Positions 4,515 through 24,061 of a stretch of DNA of 64,000 bases are shown piece after piece. The notes under the pieces are model-generated. The model had not been told where the DNA came from, ran no database searches, and was given only the letters and a program-made list of their open reading frames with translations. Position 1 is the first letter of the stretch. Each line of letters opens with the position of its first letter. Position numbers and translations under genes: made by a program. The DNA is from Micromonospora sp. NBC_01699 (GTDB lineage: Bacteria; Actinomycetota; Actinomycetes; Mycobacteriales; Micromonosporaceae). Location: assembly GCF_036250065.1 (NCBI RefSeq), contig NZ_CP109199.1:2046001-2110000 (forward strand). The letters are read 5' to 3'.

Positions 4515-4745
4515 GTCCCCCCTCCCCCCGCACAAAAGCCCCCTCCCCCCTCCCCCTCCCCCCTCCCTCCCCCTCCCCCCGCGCGCGTCCCTACCCTCCC
4601 GCGATCTAGGGCAAATACGTGTTGTTTGATCTCTGCGCGCCACCATTTGCCCTAGATCGACGGGGAGGGGGGCGGGCGCGGCGGGGGGAGGGAGGGGGGA
4701 GGGGGAGGGAGGGGGGAGGGGCGGGGAGGGGGTGCGGGTTTGGGG
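4515..4745. repeat. large inverted repeat: palindromic core flanked by C-tracts and G-tracts
   Basis: A perfect 15-bp inverted repeat (4602-4616 / 4645-4659, CGATCTAGGGCAAAT) encloses a 28-nt centre. Outside it, the left arm (about 4515-4600) is almost pure C/T with runs of C, and the right arm (about 4661-4745) almost pure G/A with runs of G, so the arms are imperfectly complementary for over 200 bp. The right strand has many G-runs and could form G-quadruplexes. It sits between the ThuA gene and the cold-shock gene. Its core/flank design resembles the 10162-10270 element. Confidence 0.8.
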
Positions 4746-6798: not shown

Positions 6799-6800
6799 GC

Positions 6801-6860
6801 GAATCGGCTACGACCGAATCGGCTACGACCGAATCGGCTACGACCGAATCGGCTACGACC
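6801..6860 (+). repeat. four perfect 15-bp tandem repeats
   Basis: The unit GAATCGGCTACGACC occurs four times without change at 6801, 6816, 6831 and 6846, two bases after the beta-helix gene stop. Identity of the copies points to recent expansion by slippage or to a conserved site array. Confidence 0.95.
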
Positions 6861-6951
6861 GGGGTGGTTCCGGGGGCGCGGTATATCGGCCGTCCGGAGC
6901 CGCCCCCGGCTGTTCCGGACGGCGGGCGCTTCCGCCTGCGGTCAGTGGGCG

Positions 6952-10266: not shown

Positions 10267-11196
10267 CTAGTGGACTACGGCTAGTGGGGAGTGGGTGTGG
10301 TGGAGTAGTTGTTGGCTGACCGAGCCGAGGACGAGTCCTCGGAAGCCGCCCTGGCCTCGGCTGCCGACCACCACCAGTTGGGCCTGCCGGCTCGCCTCGA
10401 CCAGGACGGCGGTCGGGTGGCCGGGTACCACCTCGGCGGTGATCGGCAGGTCCGGGTACCGGTCCCGCCAGCCGGCCAGCTCCTCGTCCAGCGCGGCCAG
10501 CTCGTCCCGGCTGACGTCGGCCGGATCCGGGTCGGCCGGACGCCACGGCCGCCTCGGCTCATGCCGGGCCCGGATCGCGTGCACCGGGACCGCCCGGCTG
10601 AGCGCCCGCCGCACCGCCCAGTCCAGCGCGAGCCGGGCGTACGGCGAACCGTCCGTCCCGACCACGATCCGCCGCCGGCCGTGATCAGCACCCCGACCGG
10701 CATCCCGATCGGCGGCGACGGGGGCATCGGGAGGGTCGACGGTCGATGGGCGGACGATCACGACCGGGCACTGGGCGTGGGCGCTGACCGCGATCGTGGT
10801 CGAGCCCGCGAGCAGGCCGCTGAACCCGCCGTGTCCACGGCTGCCCAGCACCACCATCGCCGCGTCGGCGGAGCGCTGTCGCAGCCCGATCGCGGCCGGG
10901 GTGTCCAGCACCTCACCGCGTACGGTCAGGTCCGGGTGGGAGTCGGCGGCCTCGCTGACGGCGGCCGAGACCAGTTCCCCCACCTCCTGCCGGGTCGTGT
11001 CGTCCGGCCAGGTGCCCGGTCCGGGGCCGGGTCCGATCCAGCTGCCGGCGGTCATCCACTCGAAGGCGTACGCCAACCGGACCGGCGCCCCCGTCCGCGT
11101 GGCCTCGTCCAGCGCCCAGGCGAGCGCGAGCCGGGCTCCCTCGGAGCCGTCGTACCCGACCAGGATCGGCCGCTCACCCATGACTGCCCCGCTCAT
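10267..11196 (-). CDS. universal stress protein, tandem UspA domains
   Basis: 309 residues with two UspA domains (about 8-150 and 172-308). Each starts with a strand ending in an Asp (ILVGYDGSEGAR; IVVGTDGSPYARLALDWA), and each has the ATP-binding G-2x-G-9x-G(S/T) motif (VLGSRGHGGFSGLLAGS; VVGSRGQGGFRGLVLGS). ATP-binding tandem Usps of actinobacteria act under hypoxia and dormancy (mycobacterial DosR regulon). ATG 11196 is chosen with GAGGGG upstream; ATG 11181 is an alternative. It lies downstream of the phosphoketolase gene on the same strand, separated by a repeat array, and probably belongs to the same stress regulon. Confidence 0.9.
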   Translation of the reverse strand: MSGAVMGERPILVGYDGSEGARLALAWALDEATRTGAPVRLAYAFEWMTAGSWIGPGPGPGTWPDDTTRQEVGELVSAAVSEAADSHPDLTVRGEVLDTPAAIGLRQRSADAAMVVLGSRGHGGFSGLLAGSTTIAVSAHAQCPVVIVRPSTVDPPDAPVAADRDAGRGADHGRRRIVVGTDGSPYARLALDWAVRRALSRAVPVHAIRARHEPRRPWRPADPDPADVSRDELAALDEELAGWRDRYPDLPITAEVVPGHPTAVLVEASRQAQLVVVGSRGQGGFRGLVLGSVSQQLLHHTHSPLAVVH

Positions 11197-11223
11197 GGCT
11201 GCCCCTCATCCACGACCGCCCCC

Positions 11224-11385
11224 GCTCATGGCCGCCCCGCTCATGGCCGCCCCGCTCACGGCCGCCCCGCTCACGGCCCCCGCTCGTCACCGTCCCCGTT
11301 CCTCACCGTCCCCGTTCCTCACCGTCCCCGTTCCTCAGCGCCCCCGTTCCTCAGCGCCCCCGTTCCTCAGCGCCCCCGTTCCTCA
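11224..11385. repeat. two adjacent tandem-repeat arrays (15 bp and 16 bp)
   Basis: GCTCATGGCCGCCCC-type 15-bp units occupy 11224-11268, and a degenerate copy runs to 11280. They pass into six 16-bp units from 11290 to 11385: three CCGTCCCCGTTCCTCA, then three GCGCCCCCGTTCCTCA. The array fills the whole spacer between the phosphoketolase stop and the Usp start on the minus strand. The stepwise change between subgroups shows block expansion. Confidence 0.95.
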
Positions 11386-11406
11386 CCGCCCCGGCTCGTC
11401 CACCGC

Positions 11407-13788
11407 TCAGCCGCGGTTGCCGATCCAGCGCCATTCGGCTACCCGTGGCGCGTCCTCGCCGTACCGGCGGGTGTACTCGCGGCACTCCTGCCGGGCGTCG
11501 ATCATGGATTGGCGCAGGTGTGCGGCTCGGGCGGCCAGGCCGGGCACCCGGTCGATCACGTCGACCACCAGGTGGAACCGGTCGAGCTGGTTGAGCATCA
11601 CCATGTCGAACGGTGTGGTGGTGGTGCCCTCCTCCTGGTAGCCGCGTACGTGCAGGTTGTCGTGGTTGGCGCGGCGGTACGTCAGCCGGTGGATCAGCGC
11701 CGGATAACCGTGGTACGCGAAGATCACCGGCCGGTTCCGGGTGAAGATCGTGTCGAACTGGGCGTCCGGCAGCCCGTGTGGATGGGCTACCTCGGACTGG
11801 AGGCGCATCAGGTCGACCACGTTCACCACCCGTACCCGTAGTTCGGGCAGGTGCCGCCGGAGCAGGTCGGCGGCGGCCAGCGTCTCCAGGGTCGGTACGT
11901 CACCGGCGCACCCGAGCACCACGTCCGGCTCGGACCCGTCGTCGCTGCTGGCCCAGCCCCAGATCCCGAGCCCGCGCCGGCAGTGCAGCACCGCCTCGTC
12001 CATCGCCAGCCAGTTCGGGCCGGGCTGCTTGCCGGCGACCACCACGTTGATGTAGTGCCGGCTGCGCAGGCAGTGGTCCATCGTGCAGAGCAGGGTGTTG
12101 GCGTCCGGTGGCAGGTAGACCCGGACCACCTCGGCCTTCTTGTTCACCACGTGGTCGATGAAGCCCGGATCCTGGTGCGAGAAGCCGTTGTGGTCCTGCC
12201 GCCAGACATGACTGGACAGCAGGTAGTTCAGCGAGGCCAGCGGCTGCCGCCAGGCGATGTCGCGGGTCGTCTTGAGCCATTTGGCGTGCTGGTTGACCAT
12301 CGAGTCGACGATGTGGATGAACGCCTCGTAGCTGGTGAAGACGCCGTGCCGACCGGTCAGCAGGTAACCCTCCAGCCAACCCTGACAGAGGTGTTCGGAG
12401 AGCACCTCCATCACCCGGCCGTCGGGGGAGAGGTGGTCGTCGTCCGGGCGTCGTTCGGCGACGAAGACCCGGTCGGTCACCTCGAAGACCGCCTCCAGCT
12501 TGTTCGAGGCCACCTCGTCCGGGCCGAACAGCCGGAACCGGTCCGGGTTGGCCACGATCACGTCGCGCAGCCACCGCCCGGTCGGGATGGTCGCCCCGGT
12601 CGCGGTGGCGCCGGGTTCCGGCACCGCCACGCCGTAGTCGCGGTAGTCGGGCAGCACCAGGTCGCGCAACACCTGGCCACCATTGGTACGCGGGTTCGCG
12701 CTCATCCGCAGGTCGCCGGCGGGCACCAGCTCGCACACCTCGGGTACGGGCGAACCGGTGGCGTCGAACAGCTCCTCGGGGTGGTAGCCGCGCAGCCAGC
12801 GCTCCAACTGGGCCAGGTGCTCCGGGTTGTCCCGTACCCCGGCCAGCGGGACCTGGTGGGCGCGGAAGGTCCCCTCGACCCGGCGGCCGTCGACCTCGCG
12901 CGGTCCGGTCCAACCCTTCGGCGTACGGAGCACGATCATCGGCCAGCGGGGGCGCTCGACCACGCCGGTGCTCCTGGCCCGGCCCTGGATGGTGGCGATC
13001 TCGTCCAGCGCCCGGTCCAGGGTGCCGGCGAGTTCCCGGTGCACCCGGTCCGGTTCGTCGCCGGCAACCACGTACGGCCGGTAGCCGTAGCCGTGCAGCA
13101 CCGACAGCAGGTCCTGTTGCGGGATCCGGTCGAAGATCGACGGGTTGCCGATCTTGTAGCCGTTGAGGTGCAGGATCGGCAGTACGGCGCCGTCGCGGGC
13201 CGGGTTCAGGAAGACGTTCGACAGCCAGCTGCCGGCCAGTGGTCCGGTCTCCGCCTCGCCGTCGCCGATCACGCAGGCCACTATCAGGTCGGGGTTGTCG
13301 AACGCGGCGCCGTAGCCGTGCATCAGCGAGTAGCCGAGTTCGCCACCCTCGTGGATCGAGCCCGGCACCTCGGCGGCGACGTGGCTGGGGATGCCGCCGG
13401 GGAAGGAGAACTGCCGGAACAGTCGTTCCATCCCGCTCTCGTCCCGGTTGACCGACGGGTAACGCTCGCTGTAGGTCCCCTCCAGCCAGGTGTTGGCCAC
13501 GATCGCCGGCCCACCGTGTCCGGGCCCGGTCACGTAGATCATTTGTAGTTGGCGCCGGACGATGGTCCGGTTCAGGTGCGCGTAGATCAGGTTCAGTCCG
13601 GGGCTGGTGCCCCAGTGGCCGAGCAGCCGGGGCTTGATCTGGGCCGCGGTCAGCGGCTCGCGCAGCAGCGGGTTGGCCATCAGGTAGATCTGGCCCACGG
13701 TCAGGTAGTTCGCCGCCCGCCAGTACGCGTTCAGCCGACGCAGCTCGTCGTCGGTCAGCGGGGCGTGCGGATCCAGGGCGGTGTCCAT
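11407..13788 (-). CDS. xfp: xylulose-5-phosphate/fructose-6-phosphate phosphoketolase
   Basis: 793 residues, the usual length of the family. It is a thiamine-diphosphate enzyme that splits xylulose-5-P (or fructose-6-P) with phosphate into acetyl-P plus a triose-P (or erythrose-4-P). Visible: the N-terminal ThDP half ([43 protein letters not shown]), the central pyrimidine domain ([36 protein letters not shown]) and the C-terminal domain ([20 protein letters not shown]). ATG 13788 is chosen; a frame to 13875 has an unlikely N-terminus. It is flanked on both sides by UspA genes on the same strand, which fits an anaerobic/stress carbon-shunt regulon. No acetate kinase is adjacent. Confidence 0.96.
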
Positions 13789-13900
13789 CGGCCTGAGCCT
13801 GCCGTCTGTCGGGTGCCCGCGCAGGCGGATCGGCGGATTGTTCCCCCGAGCGGGGACCCGCCCGCCCGTACCCACGCCTTCCGCCTACCGGGTACGGCGT

Positions 13901-15219: not shown

Positions 15220-16356
15220 ATGCAGCACAGATCCTCGTCTGTCGCAGCGGCAATCCTGCTCGCGGCCGGCATGCTGGCCACGCTGCCGCAAGCGGCCTCG
15301 GCCAAGCCCACCAACGAGGCGGCCCCCGCCGTCTCCGCGGAGATCCTCAACGCGATGCAGCGCGACCTCGGCCTCACCGCCGGCCAGGCGCAGGCGCGGC
15401 TCGCCGCTGACGACCGGGCCGCCAAGGCCGAGGAGTCGCTGCGTGGCGCCCTCGGCAACCGCTTCGGCGGCGCCTGGCTCGCCGACGGCAGCCAGGTCGT
15501 CGTCGCGGTTACCGACGCCGCCGCCGCCGAGCGGGTACGCGCCGCCGGTGCGCAGCCGAAGGTCGTCGCCCGCAGCGAGGCGGCGTTGACGGCGATCAAG
15601 GACACCCTCGACGCGAAGGAGTCCGCCGCACCGAAGTCCGTGACCGGCTGGTACGTCGACGTCACCAGCAACACCGTGGTCGTCGAGGCCACCGCCAACG
15701 GTCTCGCGGCCGCCAGCAGCTTCGCCGCCGCCAGTGGCGCGCCGGCCGGCGCGGTCCGGGTGGCCGTCGCGGCCGAGGCCCCGAAGACGCTCTACGACAT
15801 CCGGGGCGGGGACGCGTTCTACATCGGCGGCGGGCGCTGCTCGATCGGCTTCTCGGTGAACGGCGGCTTCGTTACCGCCGGACACTGCGGCCGCAGCGGT
15901 CAGGCCGTCCAGGGTTCGAACGGGGTCGCCGCGGGCAGCTTCGCCGGCTCGTCCTTCCCGGGCAACGACTACGCCTGGGTACGCACCAACGCCAACTGGG
16001 TCCCGCGCGGTGTGGTGAACCGCTACAGCGGCAGCACCACCGTGGCCGTACGCGGCTCGACCGAGTCCGCCGTCGGCGCCTCCATCTGCCGCTCCGGCTC
16101 GACCACCGGCTGGCGCTGCGGCACCGTCCAGGCGAAGAACCAGACGGTGAACTACTCGCAGGGTTCGGTCGGCGGTCTGACCCGTACCAACGCCTGCGCC
16201 GAACCGGGTGACTCGGGCGGCTCGTGGCTCAGCGGCAACCAGGCCCAGGGCGTCACCTCCGGCGGCTCGGGCAACTGCTCCAGCGGCGGCACGACCTACT
16301 TCCAGCCGGTCCGGGAGATCCTCTCCGCGTACGGCTTGAGCCTGGTCCTCGGCTAG
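15220..16356 (+). CDS. secreted alpha-lytic-protease-like serine protease (S1E)
   Basis: 378 residues: signal peptide (about 1-29, PQAASA), an alpha-lytic-protease-type pro-region (about 45-190) that acts as a folding chaperone in this family, and a mature chymotrypsin-fold domain (about 195-378). The catalytic triad is visible: H222 (VTAGHC), D250 (GNDYAW) and S332 (GDSGGS). Three Cys pairs suit the disulfides of extracellular streptogrisins. ATG 15220 follows AAGG by nine bases. It is monocistronic and ends in a strong hairpin. It probably digests exogenous protein; primary specificity was not deduced. Confidence 0.93.
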   Translation: MQHRSSSVAAAILLAAGMLATLPQAASAKPTNEAAPAVSAEILNAMQRDLGLTAGQAQARLAADDRAAKAEESLRGALGNRFGGAWLADGSQVVVAVTDAAAAERVRAAGAQPKVVARSEAALTAIKDTLDAKESAAPKSVTGWYVDVTSNTVVVEATANGLAAASSFAAASGAPAGAVRVAVAAEAPKTLYDIRGGDAFYIGGGRCSIGFSVNGGFVTAGHCGRSGQAVQGSNGVAAGSFAGSSFPGNDYAWVRTNANWVPRGVVNRYSGSTTVAVRGSTESAVGASICRSGSTTGWRCGTVQAKNQTVNYSQGSVGGLTRTNACAEPGDSGGSWLSGNQAQGVTSGGSGNCSSGGTTYFQPVREILSAYGLSLVLG

Positions 16357-16373
16357 TTCACGACGCACGACCA

Positions 16374-16407
16374 CGAACGGGCCGGCGTACCCACGCCGGC
16401 CCGTTCG
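16374..16407 (+). terminator. terminator of the protease gene
   Basis: A perfect 15-bp GC-rich stem (16374-16388 / 16393-16407) with an ACCC loop starts 17 bases after the protease stop. There is no T-tract, as usual in actinobacteria. Confidence 0.85.
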
Positions 16408-16484
16408 GCAACGTCATGTCGGTGCGGGTTACGTCACGGCCCGCCGGGTCGCTGGCTCCGCCGACTTGCTGCACACTGACGCGC

Positions 16485-17477
16485 GTGAGCCAGCGAAGCG
16501 ACACCAGCAGTGATGGCGGCCTACGCTCCGCGGTCGTGGTGAACCCGACGAAGGTCGACGTCGACCAGTTGCGTGACACGGTCACCCGCGCCCTCGCCGA
16601 CGCGGGCTGGCCGGAACCGAGCTGGTACGAGACCACCGTGAACGACCCCGGCCGAGGACAGACCCGGCAGGCGGTCGAGGCCGGGGCCGAGGTCGTCTTC
16701 GTCTGCGGCGGCGACGGGACCATCCTGTCCTGCGTGAACGCGCTGGTCGGCACCGACGTCGCGATGGCCGTGCTGCCGGTGGGCACCGGCAACCTGCTCG
16801 CCGCGAACCTCGGGCTCTCCGGCGACGTGGCCGGCGGCATCGAGATCGCGCTCGAACGGGGTCGCCGGCTGCTCGACGTCGGCGTCGTCGGGGACCAGGT
16901 CTTCACCGTGATGGCCGGAATGGGCTTCGACGCCCAGATGCTCGCCGCCACCTCCGAGACCACCAAGGCCCGGATCGGCTGGCCGGCGTACCTGGTCGGG
17001 GCCGTACGACACCTTCGCGACCGGCCGATGCGGGTGGTCATCCGGATCGACGACGACGCACCGCGCCGCCGCCGGGCCCGGACCGTGCTGGTCGCCAACG
17101 TCGGCCGGCTACAGGGCGGGGTACGCCTGCTCGCCGACGCCGAACCCGACGACGGTTACCTCGACGTCGCCATCCTCACCCCGCGCACCGTCCGGCACTG
17201 GGCCGTACTGATCTGGGCGGTGGTGGCCAAGCGCGAGCGGGTGCCCCGGATGGAGGTCTTCCGCTGCCGCCGGGTGCAGATCACCAGCAACCGCCGGCAG
17301 CCGAGGCAGCTCGACGGAGACCTGATCACGCCCGAGAAGGCGCTGCGGGCACACGTGCGGCCGAAGGCGCTGTGGCTGTGCGTACCGCGCCCGGCCGAGG
17401 CGCCGGACCTGTCGGTGGACGCCGCGACGGTGAGTCGGCGGGGGGAGCGCCGGATCGAGCGGGTACGCGGTGAGTAG
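16485..17477 (+). CDS. diacylglycerol/lipid kinase family protein
   Basis: 330 residues from GTG 16485. The N-terminal domain has the nucleotide-binding pattern of the DagK/YegS/sphingosine-kinase family: AVVVNPTKVD, then VCGGDGTILSCVNALVGTD (catalytic GGDGT), then LPVGTGNLLAANLGL. The C-terminal beta-sandwich has LLADAEPDDGYLDVAIL and QLDGDLI, both typical of the family. These enzymes phosphorylate diacylglycerol or related lipids using ATP at the inner membrane face. The stop overlaps the next gene by 8 bp, so they are co-translated; the following genes are YihY and PAP2 phosphatase, giving a kinase/phosphatase pair. Confidence 0.9.
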   Translation: MSQRSDTSSDGGLRSAVVVNPTKVDVDQLRDTVTRALADAGWPEPSWYETTVNDPGRGQTRQAVEAGAEVVFVCGGDGTILSCVNALVGTDVAMAVLPVGTGNLLAANLGLSGDVAGGIEIALERGRRLLDVGVVGDQVFTVMAGMGFDAQMLAATSETTKARIGWPAYLVGAVRHLRDRPMRVVIRIDDDAPRRRRARTVLVANVGRLQGGVRLLADAEPDDGYLDVAILTPRTVRHWAVLIWAVVAKRERVPRMEVFRCRRVQITSNRRQPRQLDGDLITPEKALRAHVRPKALWLCVPRPAEAPDLSVDAATVSRRGERRIERVRGE

Positions 17478-18507
17478 CACCCGCATCGTCCCCGAGACCC
17501 GGCTGATGGCCGATGACCAGCTCTCCGCCGACGACGCCTGGCACACCCTGCGCCGGTACGGCGGCTGGCACCTGCTGCGGGACGCGTTCATCCGGTTCCG
17601 GTACGGCGACGGCTTCAGCCACTCCCGCGCCACCGCCCTGCAACTCTGCCTGGCCGTGGTCCCGTTCCTGATCGCGCTCACCGGTCTGATCAGCGACCTC
17701 GGGGTGGAGGACGGCGGACGGGTGGTGGCCGACACCGTGGTCGCGCTGACCCCCGGCCAGAGCGACGCCATGGTCGAGGAACTGCTGGTCGACACCGAAC
17801 GCACCGAGGAGGCGGGTGAACTCGCCCTGCTGCTCGGCCTGATCACCGGCCTGGTGGCACTGACCTCGACGATGGCGCAGGTCGAGCGGGGCGCGAACCG
17901 GATCTACGGGGTGGAGCGGGACCGACCCGCGCTGCGCAAGTACGCCCGCGCGGTGGTACTGGCGCTCGGTGCCGGCGTACCGGCGCTGTTCGGGTTCCTC
18001 ATCCTGGTCGGCGGCGGACCGCTCGGCGACTCGGTGCAGCGCTACTACGCCTGGGGCGAGGTCGCGCACACGTTCTGGAACGTGCTCCGCTGGCCGCTGA
18101 GCCTCGGCCTGACCGTCTTCGCGGTCGCGGTGCTGTTCCGGTACGCCCCGCGTCGCCGCCAACCGGGCGTGTCCTGGCTGCTGTTCGGGGCGGCGCTGGC
18201 CACCGCGCTGTGGTGGCTGGCGAGCGTGCTGCTGGCCGCGTACATCGGGCTCAGCGACGGGTTCGGGGAGACGTACGGTGCGCTCGCCGGGATGATGGCG
18301 CTGCTGCTCTGGGCCAACCTCACCGGGATCGCGCTGCTCGGCGGGCTGGCCTTCAGCGCCCAACTGGAGGCACTGCGGATCGGGGTGCCGGAGCCGGCCG
18401 AGCCGGACCGCTGGCAGCCCCGGACGGACGTGACCGTACCGGTCGCCCGTACCGCCGACCACGACGCCGCCACCGACCACGCCGAACCGGGGCCGCCCTC
18501 GCCCTGA
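17470..18507 (+). CDS. YihY/UPF0761-type (BrkB-like) membrane protein
   Basis: 345 residues from GTG 17470, overlapping the lipid kinase gene by 8 bp. About six transmembrane segments can be read (ATALQLCLAVVPFLIALTGL; LALLLGLITGLVALTSTMA; AVVLALGAGVPALFGFLILV; WPLSLGLTVFAVAVLFRYAP; the LLFGAALATALWWLASVLLA segment; GMMALLLWANLTGIALLGGL), with the family signatures QVERGANRIYGVERDRP and ETYGALAGMM. A function for the family is not established (earlier called ribonuclease BN, now considered wrong). The C-terminus is a hydrophilic tail. The neighbours suggest a role at the membrane linked to lipid turnover. Confidence 0.9.
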   Translation: MSSTRIVPETRLMADDQLSADDAWHTLRRYGGWHLLRDAFIRFRYGDGFSHSRATALQLCLAVVPFLIALTGLISDLGVEDGGRVVADTVVALTPGQSDAMVEELLVDTERTEEAGELALLLGLITGLVALTSTMAQVERGANRIYGVERDRPALRKYARAVVLALGAGVPALFGFLILVGGGPLGDSVQRYYAWGEVAHTFWNVLRWPLSLGLTVFAVAVLFRYAPRRRQPGVSWLLFGAALATALWWLASVLLAAYIGLSDGFGETYGALAGMMALLLWANLTGIALLGGLAFSAQLEALRIGVPEPAEPDRWQPRTDVTVPVARTADHDAATDHAEPGPPSP

Positions 18508-18590
18508 CCGGTCGCCCGCCCGCCGCGAGCCGGGGTGTACCGAGCTACCCGATCGGGTATCGGCACGCCAGGCATCGAGGAGGTGCGGGT

Positions 18591-20057
18591 GTGAGCGCGG
18601 TCAAGGACATACTGCGGCGGCCGGGCGGCCAGTTCACCGAACGAAGCCTGGCCGGTCTCGTGTTCATCATCGGCACCGGCGTGGGATTCGCCCTGCTGCT
18701 GACCCTGGTCCGGGTCGAGTGGGGACCGCTGCACCGCGTCGACGGCGGGGTCGCGGCCTGGTTCAACGACCTGGTCTCCGCCCACGACCCGTTGGTCACG
18801 GTGCTGCGGGCGATCACCGACCTCGGTGGACGACCGATCATGCTCTGGCTGGTCACGGTCGCGGTGGTCGGGCTGCTGATCCGCCGGCAGGGGCGGTTGG
18901 CCGGCTACCTGGTGGTCACCGGGCTCGGTGCGCTGGCCCTGGACCCGTCCCTGAAGGCACTGGTCGGGCGGCTGCGTCCGGTGGTCGACGTGCCGGTCGC
19001 GGCGGGCGTGGGCAACAGCTTCCCCAGCGGGCACGCGCTCGGCTCGCTGGTCGCGTACGGGGCCCTGCTGCTGGTCTTCCTGCCGGCGATCCGGCCCCGG
19101 TGGCGCCGCCCGGCGATCGCGTTCGTCGCCGTACTGGTGTTCGCGATCGGGCTGACCCGGATCGCGCTCGGCGTGCACTTCGTCTCCGACGTACTCGGTG
19201 GCTGGTTGCTCGGGCTGGCCTGGCTGGTCGTCACCGGGTACGCCTTCCGCCTCTGGCGGCGCGAGCGGGGCCGCCCGGTGCCGGCGCTGACCGAGGGGCT
19301 GGAACCGGAGGCCCGGCGCGACCTGGAGCCGGCGCCGGAGGAGGAACGGATGCTGCCACACCCCTGGGCCGGCGCTGCCGAACTGGTGACCGGCTGGGTG
19401 CTGGTGTTCGCCGCGCTGTACGGCTTCGGCATGCTGGTCAGCTACTACGCCGACGGTACGTTCGTGGCGACGCTCGATACCGAGGTGCCGCGCTGGTTCG
19501 AGCAGCACCGCACGGCCACCCTGAACGACATCAGCTGGGGCTGGAGCAAGGTCGGTGACACGCACGCGATCATGTTCGTCTCGCTGATCTTCTGTCCGCT
19601 GGTGCTGGCGGTCTGGCGTCGTTGGCGACCGGTGCTCTTCGTCGCCCTGACCATGTTCGGTGAGCTGGCGCTCTTCCTGGCCAGCGCCCGCGCGGTCGAC
19701 CGGCCCCGGCCGGCGGTGGAGAACCTGGACGGCCAGATGCCGACGGCGTCGTTCCCGTCCGGCCACATCGCCGCCACCATGTGCCTGTACGTGGCGATCG
19801 CGGTGCTGGTGATGCCGCGTACCGACCGGTGGTGGCGGTGGCTGACGGTGGTCGCCGCGGTGGTGATGCCGGTCGGCGTCGCGATCTCCCGGATGTACCG
19901 GGGCATGCACCACCCGAGCGACTTCGCCGGGGCCATCCTGCTCACCGTGCTCTGGGTCGGCCTGCTCTACCTCGTGGTACGCCCCAACGCCGACCTCGAA
20001 CAGGGCAACCGGCCGAGCACTACGGAACCCGACGCGCTGGTTAGAGTGGCGGCATGA
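18591..20057 (+). CDS. double PAP2 (type 2 phosphatidic acid phosphatase) membrane protein
   Basis: 488 residues from GTG 18591 with GAGGAGG upstream. It holds two complete PAP2 domains in one chain. Copy 1 (about 15-220): KALVGRLRP, FPSGH at 144-148, RIALGVHFVSDVLGG. Copy 2 (about 265-475): ARAVDRPRPAVENL, FPSGH at 388-392, SRMYRGMHHPSDFAGA. Each copy has the KX6RP, PSGH and SRX5HX3D catalytic motifs, slightly degenerate in copy 1 (T in place of S in motif 3, TRIALGVH). The family dephosphorylates phosphatidate, undecaprenyl pyrophosphate or similar lipid phosphates. The tandem fusion is unusual; ATGA couples it to the next gene. Confidence 0.9.
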   Translation: MSAVKDILRRPGGQFTERSLAGLVFIIGTGVGFALLLTLVRVEWGPLHRVDGGVAAWFNDLVSAHDPLVTVLRAITDLGGRPIMLWLVTVAVVGLLIRRQGRLAGYLVVTGLGALALDPSLKALVGRLRPVVDVPVAAGVGNSFPSGHALGSLVAYGALLLVFLPAIRPRWRRPAIAFVAVLVFAIGLTRIALGVHFVSDVLGGWLLGLAWLVVTGYAFRLWRRERGRPVPALTEGLEPEARRDLEPAPEEERMLPHPWAGAAELVTGWVLVFAALYGFGMLVSYYADGTFVATLDTEVPRWFEQHRTATLNDISWGWSKVGDTHAIMFVSLIFCPLVLAVWRRWRPVLFVALTMFGELALFLASARAVDRPRPAVENLDGQMPTASFPSGHIAATMCLYVAIAVLVMPRTDRWWRWLTVVAAVVMPVGVAISRMYRGMHHPSDFAGAILLTVLWVGLLYLVVRPNADLEQGNRPSTTEPDALVRVAA

Positions 20058-20725
20058 GGATCGGCCCGGAGCAGACCGTCTCGTCCGCCGCCGCCAGTCC
20101 GGCCCCGCCCCCGGTGGCCCGGCCCCCGGCCGCCCGCCTCGCGGCCACGGTCGGCGGCGCGCCGACCGGCGGCACGCCGACCCCGCTGCTGCGCCGGCTG
20201 ATCGGCTCGGTGCTGCGCCGGGTCCGGTTGCGGCAGGGGCGGACCCTGCGCGACGTCGCCCGGACGGCGGGCGTTTCGGTGCCGTACCTGTCCGAGATCG
20301 AGCGGGGCCGCAAGGAACCCTCCTCCGAGGTGCTGGCCGCGATCTGCCGCGCGCTCGGACTGCACCTGACCGAACTGCTCGAACAGGTACGCGACGACCT
20401 GTCCCGGATCGAGCCCGCGCGCCCGGTCGTCCCGCCGCGGGTCGGAGAGCTGCCCACCGGGCAGCCGTCGGCCGTGCGTCGGGCACCGGAGATCACTTGC
20501 GCTGTCGGCGGATCTCCCGACAGCAGAATCCGTTCCCCTCGCCCCCGTCGGGGCGGGAAGCTGCATGGGTCGGTTATCCGGGCGAACACCTCGCCCGCCG
20601 GCCGGGCAGGAGGCGGGATCTATGACCGGGCAAAGGGTATGGATGCGCGCGGAGGCACAGGTCTCGTTCGGCGACCAGGTCTACGACCGGTTGCTCCAGG
20701 AACGGATCATCTTCCTCGGCAGTGA
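20054..20725 (+). CDS. ClgR/PopR-like XRE-family activator
   Basis: 223 residues as read. ATG 20054 overlaps the PAP2 stop (ATGA). Residues ~47-115 are a Cro/C1 helix-turn-helix (LRDVARTAGVSVPYLSEIER) followed by GRKEPSSEVLAAICRALGL, very close in pattern to Streptomyces ClgR, which activates clpP and clpC genes. The first 45 residues are Ala/Pro-rich. The ~85 residues after TELLEQVRDD are basic and low in complexity and run 104 bp into the clpP-like gene; the last part is probably a passive read-through of the clpP region, so the functional protein may be the N-terminal ~130 residues. Its position upstream of a ClpP paralogue supports the ClgR/PopR role. Confidence 0.8.
   Translation: MRIGPEQTVSSAAASPAPPPVARPPAARLAATVGGAPTGGTPTPLLRRLIGSVLRRVRLRQGRTLRDVARTAGVSVPYLSEIERGRKEPSSEVLAAICRALGLHLTELLEQVRDDLSRIEPARPVVPPRVGELPTGQPSAVRRAPEITCAVGGSPDSRIRSPRPRRGGKLHGSVIRANTSPAGRAGGGIYDRAKGMDARGGTGLVRRPGLRPVAPGTDHLPRQ
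20500..20510. promoter_or_regulatory. candidate ClgR-type operator CGC-N5-GCG
   Basis: CGCTGTCGGCG (20500-20510) fits the core CGC-N5-GCG of the ClgR box known from Streptomyces and corynebacteria. It lies 112 bp before the clpP-like start, inside the C-terminal end of the regulator frame. In a 70+% GC genome such short matches occur by chance, so this is weak. Confidence 0.3.
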
Positions 20726-21230
20726 GGTCGACGACGCCTCGGCGAACCGGATCAGCGCGCAGATACTGCTGCTCTCGGCCGCCGACCCGACCCGGGACAT
20801 CAAGCTCTACATCAACTCACCGGGTGGCTCGATCAGCGCCGGCATGGCGGTCTACGACACCATGCAGTTCGTCCCGAACGACGTCGCCACCATCGCCCTG
20901 GGACTCGCCGGTTCGATGGCGCAGTTCCTGCTCTGCACCGGCACCGCCGGCAAGCGCTACGCGCTGCCGCACGCGCAGGTGATGATGCACCAGCTCTCCG
21001 GCGGCATCGGTGGCACCGCAGCCGACATCGCCATCCAGGCGGAGAACATGCTGCACGTCAAGCGGACCACACACGAGCTGCTGGCCCGGCACACCGGGCG
21101 TACGGTCGAGGAGATCACCACCGACTCCGACCGGGACCGTTGGTTCACCGCCGAGCAGGCGAAGTCGTACGGCATGATCGACCACGTGATCGCCCGAGCC
21201 GGCCAACTCCCGGATCCCGAGCCGGCCTGA
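20622..21230 (+). CDS. ClpP-family serine protease subunit (paralogue)
   Basis: 202 residues from ATG 20622 with AGGAGG eight bases before. It matches the ~200-residue ClpP peptidase: QERIIFLGSEVDDASANRI, LYINSPGGSISAGMAVYDTM, catalytic S98 (GLAGSMAQFLL) and H123 (VMMHQ), and the head-domain helix with LLARHTGRT. A catalytic Asp is likely in TTDSDRDRWF. The subunits form a barrel that works with ClpX or ClpC unfoldases to degrade proteins. The loop GLAGSMAQ differs from the usual GMAASMGA, so this is probably a secondary paralogue like Streptomyces ClpP3/4, in keeping with the adjacent PopR/ClgR-like gene. Confidence 0.92.
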   Translation: MTGQRVWMRAEAQVSFGDQVYDRLLQERIIFLGSEVDDASANRISAQILLLSAADPTRDIKLYINSPGGSISAGMAVYDTMQFVPNDVATIALGLAGSMAQFLLCTGTAGKRYALPHAQVMMHQLSGGIGGTAADIAIQAENMLHVKRTTHELLARHTGRTVEEITTDSDRDRWFTAEQAKSYGMIDHVIARAGQLPDPEPA

Positions 21231-21282
21231 CCGGACCGGACGGCGGACGTCCTGCTGGCGGCCGGACACTAGGGTCGGGCGG

Positions 21283-22386
21283 GTGACCAGGCCAGAGCCG
21301 AACGGTGAGATCCGGGTGGTGGCGCCACCGTTGGAGCCGGACGTTCCCCGATGGATCCAACTGCCGGTGCGCGTGCTCGCCGCGTTGGTGATCGTGCCAC
21401 TGGGCCTGCTCTGGGAGGCCGCCCGGCTGACCGGCCGGCTCCTGTACCGCTACCTGGTCCGTCCCGTGGGCCGGGCCGTCGACCGGTTGCTCTGGCGCCC
21501 GCTGGTGTGGGCCGCCCGGCACCTGGTGTGGCTACCCCTGGTCTGGGCGGCGCGTCATCTCGTCTGGCTACCCCTGGTCTGGGCGGCGCGTCATCTCGTC
21601 TGGCTACCCCTGGTCTGGGCGGCCCGTGGGGTGGGCTGGGTGGCCCGTCAGATGGTCTGGCTGCCGGTGCGGTGGATCGCGCTGAACCTGGTCTGGCGGC
21701 CGCTGGTCTGGGCCGGACGGTACCTGCTCTGGTACCCGTTGGCCTGGCTCGTCCGTTACCTGGTCCTGGCACCGCTGAGCTGGCTGCACGGGCTGCTCGC
21801 CGCACCGGCACGGGCGTTCGTACGCGTGCTCGCGGCGGTTGCCGGCTGGCTGCTGGGCCGGCTCGCCGCCGTACTGGGCCTGCTCTGGGCGGGGGTGTGG
21901 TGGGTCGGGCGGGTGTTGGCGGGCGGAGCCCGGTTCGGCTGGTGGCTGCTCGGGCTGACGGTCCGGTCCGGGTACCGGTACCTGCTGCGTCCGATCGGGT
22001 GGGCGGTGCGCTGGACCTGGTGGCAGACGGTGGTTCCGCTCGGGCGCGCGATCGGCTGGTCGGTCGGCCAACTCGCCCGCGTGCTGCGCCCGCTCGGGCT
22101 GGCCGCGGTCCACCTGGGACGGCTGCTGTGGGCGGGGGTGCGGTTCGGCTGGTGGCTGTGCGGTGTGCTGATGCGGTTCGTCCACCGGTTCCTGCTGCGC
22201 CCGGTCGGGCGGGCGGTGCGTTGGACCTGGCGGCACACCCTGGTCCCGGTCGGGCGGGCGATCGGTCGGCTGTGGTCGGGCGGTGTCGTACCGGCGGGTC
22301 GGTGGCTGCGCGACGACGTGGTCCGGCCGGTGCGGGTGACCACCCGGCAGGTCCTCGTCGCGTTCGGCTTCCGCCGCCGCACCTGA
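21283..22386 (+). CDS. Trp/Arg/Leu-rich repetitive membrane-associated protein
   Basis: 367 residues from GTG 21283. I do not recognise a family. After a hydrophilic ~25-residue start it is almost entirely W, R, L, V and A, with one or more Trp every 5-7 residues and Arg or His every few residues. A 12-residue motif LVWAARHLVWLP occurs three times in tandem (74-85, 86-97, 98-109), with diverged copies continuing as LVWAARGVGWVARQMVWLP. A second type of repeat, LLRP(I/V)GxAVRWTWxxTxVPxGRAIG, occurs twice (about 233-265 and 305-332). Such amphipathic segments would lie in or along the membrane interface. It may be the last gene of the lipid/ClpP block. Confidence 0.75.
   Translation: MTRPEPNGEIRVVAPPLEPDVPRWIQLPVRVLAALVIVPLGLLWEAARLTGRLLYRYLVRPVGRAVDRLLWRPLVWAARHLVWLPLVWAARHLVWLPLVWAARHLVWLPLVWAARGVGWVARQMVWLPVRWIALNLVWRPLVWAGRYLLWYPLAWLVRYLVLAPLSWLHGLLAAPARAFVRVLAAVAGWLLGRLAAVLGLLWAGVWWVGRVLAGGARFGWWLLGLTVRSGYRYLLRPIGWAVRWTWWQTVVPLGRAIGWSVGQLARVLRPLGLAAVHLGRLLWAGVRFGWWLCGVLMRFVHRFLLRPVGRAVRWTWRHTLVPVGRAIGRLWSGGVVPAGRWLRDDVVRPVRVTTRQVLVAFGFRRRT
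21502..21609 (+). repeat. three 36-bp tandem repeats inside the Trp-rich gene
   Basis: Units 21502-21537, 21538-21573 and 21574-21609 each encode LVWAARHLVWLP. The second and third are identical in DNA; the first differs only at synonymous sites. Recent duplication in frame is clear. Confidence 0.95.
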
Positions 22387-22487
22387 CCCGGTCGGCGCCG
22401 TACCCCACCGTGACGGGGCGACGATGACGGGGCGACGATATAGTGACAAGCTTGACTATCTTGGGTCGCGGCGGGTAGCGTACCGGG

Positions 22488-22501
22488 CTTAACCGGTTAA
22501 G
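22488..22501. promoter_or_regulatory. 14-bp perfect palindrome CTTAACCGGTTAAG
   Basis: A perfect palindrome 171 bp before the M1 aminopeptidase start, just downstream of a promoter-like TTGACT (22452-22457)...TAGCGT. It is followed by GCCGGTT. The core AACCGGTT recurs upstream of the mannanase gene. This has the form of a dimeric repressor operator. Confidence 0.6.
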
Positions 22502-22672
22502 AAGCCGGTTGATCCGACATCCTGTGGTGGGGATGATGCCGTCCGGGCGGCCTGGCGGGCGACTGCCGGGCCGCCCGGACGCGCGCCACCCGAGCCGCGC
22601 GCCGGCTCACGCTCCGTGCCGTCGGGCCGGGTGTCTTCCCCGGCCCGAACACCGGCACTAGCGTGACGCGCT

Positions 22673-24061
22673 ATGCACATGATTCGACGGATCACGGCGG
22701 TCGTCGCAGCGGCGACCCTCACCCTCACCGTCACCGGATCGCCGGCCAGCGCCGGCAGGAGCCGGGCCGGCGCGCCCGGGGCCGGGGACGGCTACTTCCC
22801 GCTCGCCGGCAACGGCGGGTACGACGTACGACACTACGGACTTGAGATCCGATACCAGCCGGCCACCCGCGCGTTCTCCGGGGTGGCGACGATCAGTGCG
22901 CGGGCCACCGACCGGCTCACCCGGTTCAACCTTGACCTGCGCGGTTTCGAGGTGCGGTCGGTGACCGTTGACGGGCGGTCGGCGCGGTTCGACCGGGACG
23001 GCCAGGAGCTGCGGATCTCGCCCCGGCACGACCTCTCGTCCGGCGAGCGGTTCACCGTCGTCGTGCGCTACGACGGTACGACCGGCCAACCGACCGACAA
23101 CGAGGGCGCGCTCTACGGCTGGGTCTCCACCCCGGATGGTTCCTTCGTGGCCAACGAGCCGGAGGGGGCGTCGACCTGGTACCCGGTCAACGACCACCCC
23201 ACCGACAAGGCGAGCTACGACTTCCGGATCACCGTCCCGGAGGGCAAGACGGCGGTGGCCAACGGTGAACTGGTCGACCAGCGGACCAGGGCCGGCTGGA
23301 CCACCTTCACCTGGCGGGCCACCGACCAGATGGCCAGCTACCTGTCCACCGCCTCGGTCGGCGACTACGACCTGCGGCGCAGCACCGGCCCCCGGGGACT
23401 GCCGATCATCGACGCGATCGACCGGGATCTGCCGGCGGACGCCGCCGCCAACCTGGCCCGTACGCCGGAGATGATCGCCTACTTCAGTGACCTGTTCGGG
23501 CGCTACCCGTTCACCTCGTTCGGCGCGATCATCGACGACGACGAGGACGCCGGTTACGCGCTGGAGACCCAGACCCGGCCGATCTACTCCGGCCCGCCGT
23601 CCGAGGGTACGGTCGCGCACGAGCTGGCCCACCAGTGGTTCGGCAACAGTGTGAGCCCGGAGCGCTGGCAGGATATCTGGCTCAACGAGGGCTTCGCCAC
23701 GTACGCGGAGTGGTTGTGGACCGAGCACACCGGCGGCACCACCGCGGCGGCCCGGTTCGACACCTACTACGCCCGGCCGGACACCTCCGGCATCTGGAAC
23801 CCGCCGCCGGGTGACCCGGGCGCGGACAACCTGTTCGCCGGTTCGGTCTACACCAAGGGCGCGATGACCCTCCAGGCACTGCGCGAGAAGATCGGCGACC
23901 GGGCCTTCTTCGCCCTGCTGCGCACCTGGTACGCGGCGAACCGCGACGGTACGGTCGGCACCGCCGACTTCGTCCGGCTCGCCGAGCGGGTCTCCGGCAA
24001 GCGGCTGGGCGCATTCTTCCAGACCTGGGTCTACACCCCGGGCAAGCCCACCACCTGGTGA
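22673..24061 (+). CDS. secreted M1-family zinc aminopeptidase
   Basis: 462 residues; signal peptide (about 1-27, GSPASAG). It is a gluzincin of the M1 family, removing N-terminal residues from peptides outside the cell. The zinc site is complete: H316-E317-x2-H320 (HELAHQWFGN) and E339 (NEGFATYAEW) with 18 residues between. The exopeptidase motif of this group is present only loosely (YALETQTRPIY instead of the classic GAMEN), a form seen in the secreted actinobacterial M1 proteins. Length is about half that of PepN because the C-terminal helical domain is missing, again typical of the secreted type. ATG 22673 or 22679 may start. A candidate operator is upstream. Confidence 0.92.
   Translation: MHMIRRITAVVAAATLTLTVTGSPASAGRSRAGAPGAGDGYFPLAGNGGYDVRHYGLEIRYQPATRAFSGVATISARATDRLTRFNLDLRGFEVRSVTVDGRSARFDRDGQELRISPRHDLSSGERFTVVVRYDGTTGQPTDNEGALYGWVSTPDGSFVANEPEGASTWYPVNDHPTDKASYDFRITVPEGKTAVANGELVDQRTRAGWTTFTWRATDQMASYLSTASVGDYDLRRSTGPRGLPIIDAIDRDLPADAAANLARTPEMIAYFSDLFGRYPFTSFGAIIDDDEDAGYALETQTRPIYSGPPSEGTVAHELAHQWFGNSVSPERWQDIWLNEGFATYAEWLWTEHTGGTTAAARFDTYYARPDTSGIWNPPPGDPGADNLFAGSVYTKGAMTLQALREKIGDRAFFALLRTWYAANRDGTVGTADFVRLAERVSGKRLGAFFQTWVYTPGKPTTW

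Follow-up and report, generated by a model that had tools for sequence, protein, structure and literature searches.

Long amphipathic helices built from repeats are known from exchangeable apolipoproteins and synucleins, and in apolipoprotein A-I the repeats are also punctuated by proline. Right-handed coiled coils, such as those of adhesin stalks, follow a 15/4 or 19/5 periodicity. For amphipathic helices of the 3-11 type, passages of a study that deals with perilipin 4 give a stripe at about 98° per residue, corresponding to 3.67 residues per turn (PMC6164224). In the same passages, perilipin 4 is described as a giant, continuous and repetitive amphipathic helix of 33-residue repeats that acts as a coat, lacks large hydrophobic residues and binds bilayer liposomes only very weakly (PMC6164224).

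The protein family described here was encountered in Micromonospora sp. NBC_01699, within a stretch of 64,000 nucleotides (contig NZ_CP109199.1, positions 2,046,001–2,110,000) that was analysed as a whole and is called the window in the following. Like the apolipoproteins and synucleins, the family appears to form a long, repeat-built amphipathic helix, with 98.0–98.5° per residue in proline-free pairs. Unlike them, it uses units of 7, 11, 12, 18/19 and 22 residues in place of a strict 11/22 (or 33) repeat, the units of the window protein being of 12 (and 7) residues; it is also rich in Trp and Arg, carries few acidic residues, and is bacterial and presumably intracellular. No sequence homology of the window protein to apolipoprotein, perilipin or synuclein profiles was found (Pfam at E ≤ 1, PDB at E ≤ 10). 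With perilipin 4 the family would share the giant repetitive amphipathic helix and possibly the coat role, whereas its richness in Trp, Leu and Pro and a hydrophobic face with large residues set it apart. An average period of about 95°, or about 3.8 residues per turn, is reminiscent of right-handed coiled coils; unlike these, the family has many prolines and one strongly hydrophobic side. The best reading of these comparisons is, by analogy, that the family would work in the manner of apolipoprotein, synuclein and perilipin helices while being unrelated to them by sequence or repeat length.

Coding status, homology and distribution

The gene is an open reading frame of 367 aa with a GTG start on the forward strand, covering exactly positions 21283–22386. 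Its product, a predicted Trp/Arg-rich amphipathic-helix protein, contains 36 Trp residues (9.8%; 5–12% among 24 proteins of the family), 13.6% Arg plus Lys and only 2.2% Asp plus Glu, giving a net charge of +42. The frame is regarded as coding because of its codon-position GC (0.78/0.55/0.90), the nearly full-length homologues (75% and 61% identity) that the two other genomes of the genus contain, and a dN/dS of 0.42–0.56 across three pairs. This evidence rules out a non-coding or composition artefact, and the ORF is a real coding gene. Its homologues carry similar repeats; the opposite outcome considered in the initial annotation, a non-coding frame without repeat-bearing relatives, was checked for and did not occur.

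Matches were obtained by single-sequence search in 108 of 354 genomes (8 of 44 genera) of the same taxonomic family, and by profile searches in 8 of 200 genomes of the order, 16 of 296 of the class and 10 of 296 of the phylum; these counts are probably lower bounds, since at most 5–11 first-look candidates were scored per genome. Each of the three genomes of the genus contains one match. When an alignment of the Streptomyces type was used in a scan of named genomes, 365 of 377 stretches were confirmed; the titles of the best 80 of these 365 name Streptomyces in 79 cases and ‘Actinobacteria bacterium’ in the remaining case. A contig scan with the window protein alone as query returned 38 stretches, none of which was confirmed.

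The relationship between the window family and the Streptomyces proteins is supported by an hhalign comparison of the two alignments (99.8%). In line with this, the profile of alignment A1 scored 67.7–106.2 bits for nine real Streptomyces proteins and negatively for nine reversed and 180 shuffled sequences, so that, together with the hhalign result, composition alone is ruled out as the source of this homology. For 180 sequences shuffled in blocks of 19 residues, scores of 8.4–69.3 (median 32.3) were retained, which indicates that part of the A1 score stems from a common short motif and the rest from order.

The window protein has no Pfam match at E ≤ 1, no NCBIfam match above a curated cut-off and no match in a sequence search of the PDB at E ≤ 10, and its best hit in PHROGs has an E-value of 3. 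Likewise, no credible NCBIfam match was found for 22 members and no credible Pfam family for 33, one of which matches a disordered PT repeat (0.0023). An unambiguous match to an established family, named beforehand as a refuting outcome, was looked for in Pfam, NCBIfam, PHROGs and the PDB and did not turn up. The initial statement that no family with this pattern is known therefore stands for the curated libraries searched; it does not stand in the sense of an orphan, as an actinobacterial family exists. A phage or plasmid origin was rejected, with no PHROG better than E 3 and no plasmid match for one Streptomyces homologue. Literature searches revealed neither a paper on such a protein, judged by the titles listed, nor a proposed structure, and the protein is not described in the passages seen of papers naming S. 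coelicolor SCO2600-2605. Judged from the sequence comparisons, the window gene belongs to a real but unannotated actinobacterial protein family.

For close comparison, 24 loci were picked by hand, and hence not randomly, among the family matches. The 32 members used below are the window protein, 22 of these 24 loci and nine of ten Streptomyces loci, leaving out L011 (frame breaks in mid-gene), L040 (no start located) and L095 (called start far upstream). In L011, from genome G008, the parts homologous to the N- and C-termini lie in different frames, the gene being either broken or mis-assembled.

Gene neighbourhoods

In the window, the gene is preceded by a run of genes on the same (forward) strand, identified by Pfam and synteny unless stated otherwise: a diacylglycerol-kinase-family protein with DAGK_cat and YegS_C domains (16224–17477), a YihY/BrkB-family membrane protein (17470–18507), a protein with two PAP2 phosphatase matches (18330–20057), a ClgR-like helix-turn-helix regulator (20054–20725; NCBIfam, 94 bits, below the ClgR cut-off of 170) and a ClpP protease (20565–21230; Pfam CLP_protease, 5.8e-71), which stops 52 nt before the ORF. 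The order from the kinase gene to ClpP is kept in both same-genus genomes. In a large sister genus (g4), the kinase and PAP2 genes lie upstream in 11 of 11 loci and YihY in 10 of 11; in two loci, a gene of the endonuclease/exonuclease/phosphatase type was confirmed to separate PAP2 from the homologue. A search for 13 neighbour genes of the window gave no match at all in 10 of the 24 compared loci, which come from more distant genera.

A different setting is found in Streptomyces, where the order is pbp2, rodA, CYTH/CHAD, radical SAM, homologue, DUF2344, RNase E/G, with Pfam assignments for one locus. Where a locus extends far enough, the homologue is placed near genes of the mre/spore-wall locus (mreBCD-pbp2-rodA), downstream of pbp2, rodA, CYTH/CHAD and radical SAM and adjacent to DUF2344; the protein is not mentioned in the parts seen of the literature on the spore-wall complex, including PMC4416010 and PMC4255298. 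Within the limited length of the best 80 Streptomyces-type loci, DUF2344 follows the homologue in 80 of 80 and RNase E was found in 65; upstream, radical SAM was found in 44, CYTH/CHAD in 34, rodA in 24 and pbp2 in eight. The 36 loci in which radical SAM was not found upstream include four with a short upstream stretch, the rest having about 6 kb. The attachment site of the phage phiJoe is generally located 74 bp from the end of the radical SAM gene, according to passages of PMC5311408, so mobile elements may separate radical SAM from the homologue. The absence of radical SAM upstream in 36 of these 80 loci (L106-L185) fits an insertion at this site. The DUF2344 locus of the window genome itself contains no copy of the family in the 14 kb examined. 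As neighbourhoods differ between genera, gene context does not fix a role.

Several further features of the window were observed. A scan of 15900–22800 for promoters and terminators found none; an inverted repeat, whose arms of 17 nt are 94% complementary and enclose a loop of 8 nt, lies at 22540–22581, between the ORF and the next gene, and is absent from the list of the terminator scan. The gene of the ClgR-like regulator overlaps that of ClpP (20054–21230), downstream of DAGK-YihY-PAP2, and our guess would be that the two form a small self-regulated unit. At 4520–4740, a C-rich tract of CCCCCT units and, about 100 nt further on, a G-rich near-complement enclose a short inverted repeat; this arrangement might fold into a long hairpin or else a G-quadruplex. 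A 15-bp unit occurs in about four perfect copies at 6800–6861, and tandem arrays of 15–16 bp with up to 7.7 copies are located at 11179–11392, just downstream of a minus-strand ORF (11407–13875) which resembles phosphoketolase by eye.

Repeats, helical stripe and proline lag

According to the alignments, members share conserved N- and C-terminal blocks separated by a middle part of variable length. In the window protein, the N-terminal block comprises residues 22–46 (21346–21420; alignments A1 and A3), with R30 conserved in 97% and P39 and W44 in 100% of those of the 33 aligned sequences that have a residue at the position, and the C-terminal block comprises residues 303–365 (22189–22377). Between them, a variable Trp-Pro-Arg repeat region spans residues 71–170 (21493–21792), where the alignment with the two same-genus homologues shows one 12-residue and one 5-residue gap.

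This region contains three tandem copies of the 12-residue unit LVWAARHLVWLP, beginning at residues 74, 86 and 98, and half a fourth from residue 110. On the DNA level, repeat scans gave a 36-nt array of 3.8 copies (TRF) at 21491–21627, and 21539–21574 is identical to 21575–21610. The three copies and the identity of the second and third, which had been read off the sequence initially, are thereby confirmed. The longest exact peptide repeat of the protein is 31 residues, compared with at most nine among 1000 residue shuffles. A second duplication comprises 149 nt (about 50 aa) and is present at 21907–22055 and 22117–22265 with 77% DNA identity; at its period of 70 residues, 33 of 70 residues are identical. 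Three earlier descriptions have to be modified accordingly. The second repeat type does occur twice, being 50–70 aa long and not about 30; the 12-residue unit is one among several (7, 11, 12, 18/19, 22); and a Trp every five to seven residues holds within the array, where spacings mostly alternate between 5 and 7, but not outside it, where they vary irregularly from 1 to 27.

Structure prediction, suggested from the outset as a check, was performed with AlphaFold2 and yielded helices only, with no lipid in the prediction and with a low pTM in both models. In the window protein the helices cover 23–171, 174–232 and 239–360 (mean pLDDT 74.9, pTM 0.28); a relative of 223 residues was predicted to have four (mean pLDDT 80.9, pTM 0.34). 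A fold search with the first model against the PDB gave no match at E ≤ 10. Given these helical models, helix content is likely.

The arrangement of residues along the chain has a helical period. Local spectra of the hydrophobic moment peak at 94–97° per residue in all 32 members, with z-scores of 3.7–8.6 against each protein's own shuffles and above 5 in 30 of 32. Six control proteins of the window reach at most 1.9. All of 125 control ORFs, taken from related loci, stay below 5; these were chosen by codon-position GC and a length of 220–520 aa, so that some may be wrong frames, and ten further ORFs with a family match had been taken out before the count. The weakest family member (3.7) falls below the two highest of these controls (4.1 and 3.9). 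When the spectra of five proteins were computed in 144-residue windows, the signal was kept (z 5.4–7.6, peaks at 92–98°). In a leave-one-out wheel of the 32 proteins, R and K are found at the polar pole and L, V and I at the opposite pole. Of the two flanks, one holds most of the W and the other most of the G, and P falls on the hydrophobic side. The chain therefore carries an alpha-helical polar (Arg) stripe with a Leu/Val/Ile face at the helical period. These and the following hydrophobicity calculations use the Eisenberg and Kyte-Doolittle scales and a rough membrane-insertion scale.

A proline kink unwinds the turn preceding the proline. When residue pairs without an intervening Pro were considered, the stripe was found at 98.5° (bootstrap 98.0–98.5), and each Pro between a pair adds about −50° (bootstrap between −46 and −60, of which −60 is the grid edge); inclusion of the Pro term raises R2 from 0.55 to 0.78. 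Separate fits are alike, with 98.5°/−60° (grid edge) for Streptomyces and 98°/−48° for the remaining members. Of 14 residue types used as marker, Pro gave the largest gain (0.233), with smaller gains of opposite sign for Gly (0.162) and Ala (0.137); R2 values of different markers rest on different bins and are only roughly comparable. The best of 15 marker positions lies three residues before Pro, with 99.5°, −78° per Pro and an R2 of 0.87. Five models were compared on six segments of the window protein, which was among the 32 proteins used for the Pro fit; this three-before-Pro model yields the largest moment in every segment, and the Pro-corrected moment of the 12-residue array has a z of only 2.2. 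A constant 95° helix was dropped in favour of 98° plus a Pro lag, which fits better; the average of about 95° results from a near-standard helix (98–99.5°) with a lag at each Pro. Each Pro thus corresponds to a lag of about 50–80°, as from a proline kink, and prolines act as phase correctors.

The same register is visible in the insertions and deletions. Among the nearest relatives within Streptomyces, 70 of 78 indels lie within 40° of a whole turn; they were de-duplicated but are not fully independent, C-terminal tails had been cut, and the count is drawn from those of the 80 Streptomyces proteins that pass its pattern. In neighbouring genes of the same loci, the corresponding numbers are 90 of 331 for RNase E (40 of the 65 loci with a match, length-filtered), 8 of 41 for DUF2344 and 10 of 37 for radical SAM, and a fraction of 0.29 is expected for uniform lengths. 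The Streptomyces indels are mostly of 4, 7, 11, 18 or 22 residues, with 7, 11, 22 and 4 the commonest; an initial listing of them covers 77 of 80 proteins and excludes pairs with more than three gaps as well as gaps near the end. In the window's family (28 proteins), 12 residues is the commonest length, with exactly one Pro in eight of nine cases, and the 19-residue indels contain exactly one Pro in four of four. In this set, whose events are likewise de-duplicated but not fully independent, the mean cosine is 0.19 without the Pro correction and 0.62 with it. The correction, whose parameters were fitted on sequences overlapping this set, also raises the number within 40° from 15 of 40 to 22 (−50°) or 27 (−78°), leaving 13–18 of 40 off register. 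The proteins of the family thus gain and lose pieces mostly in whole helix turns, the rule being looser in the window's family and dependent there on the Pro term.

Possible placement and role at the membrane

We consider it reasonably probable that the window protein is an extended, cationic, proline-punctuated amphipathic alpha-helix of an unannotated actinobacterial family which lies along the membrane surface. Membrane location and role are what we infer from the sequences. Placement at the surface of the inner membrane is suggested by the net charge (+14 to +48 in the 32 members), by Trp on a flank and Arg at the pole, and by the 25% of family core windows with a moment of at least 0.5, compared with 0–2.5% in four control proteins of the window. 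The helices would run along the membrane on its cytoplasmic leaflet: Arg would contact the anionic headgroups, Trp would occupy the interface, and Leu/Val/Ile would reach into the acyl region. The N-terminal block may act as an anchor, and the units of 7, 11, 12, 18/19 and 22 residues would set the length of the protein and thereby that of a membrane-surface rod or coat. Among the ideas of the initial annotation, that of a membrane-surface scaffold is the one that fares best.

A reading to which we assign a low probability is that of an ordinary multi-pass integral membrane protein, in which short hydrophobic Pro/Trp segments cross or re-enter the membrane as kinked hairpins and the stripe reflects helix packing within it. 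It would agree with the positive mean hydropathy of the five proteins computed and with the charge-free runs of at least 19 residues that 22 of 32 members contain, their number ranging from one to the five of a single Streptomyces protein. It would also agree with the 12-residue array, whose plain moment is low (mostly 0.15–0.27) at a moderate to rather high hydrophobicity. The N-terminal segment is possibly transmembrane on the rough membrane-insertion scale. However, a charge-free run of 19 residues is absent from the window protein and nine other members, and TM-like windows make up 5.6% of the family cores, compared with 18% for YihY and 12% for PAP2. Furthermore, moments of at least 0.5 are reached in none of the windows of YihY and 1.4% of those of PAP2, in contrast to the 25% of the family, and both polytopic controls lack a comparable stripe (z 0.4 and 1.5).

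Still less probable appears a perilipin-like coat of intracellular neutral-lipid inclusions in triacylglycerol-storing actinobacteria. Such inclusions are reported for actinobacteria including Streptomyces, and a putative amphipathic helix for many candidate inclusion proteins, in passages of PMC10699116; the long 3-11-type helix recalls perilipin 4 as portrayed in parts of PMC6164224, and DAGK- and PAP2-family genes adjoin. The 9.8% Trp nevertheless contrasts with the perilipin 4 helix, which has no large hydrophobic residues according to the same parts of PMC6164224, the strong positive charge would be better suited to anionic bilayers, and no lipid-storage gene is present in the Streptomyces neighbourhood (one locus scanned).

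The cationic, amphipathic composition rich in Trp and Arg resembles that of antimicrobial peptides in general; apart from this resemblance no support was found for the antimicrobial-like assembly proposed initially, and a secreted or membrane-disrupting protein of this or a toxin-like kind is very improbable in view of the single match in each of three genus genomes at a conserved site among housekeeping genes, the repeats that hold one long register in place of cleavable units, and the lack of a signal peptide apparent by eye.

Returning to the helix along the membrane surface, the role to which the data, if weakly, most likely point would be that of a scaffold on the membrane where envelope or phospholipid metabolism takes place. 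More tentatively, and with somewhat more doubt than confidence, the family might represent a hitherto unrecognised class of bacterial membrane-surface rods, in which a proline-geared amphipathic helix of tens of nanometres serves as molecular ruler or scaffold beneath the membrane at sites of envelope growth. Such rods would evolve mainly by whole helical turns, with prolines as phase correctors.

The family occurs in many actinobacteria, is found near cell-wall genes in Streptomyces and has no curated entry in the libraries searched. Two rules read from the sequences, namely a stripe that lags by a constant angle at each proline and indels mostly of whole turns, amount to a testable physical model of how such a protein may be seated on a membrane. 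If this holds true, the family would be a bacterial, Trp/Arg-based counterpart of the apolipoprotein and perilipin helices, and would offer a clear example from nature of how proline kinks keep a helix in register.
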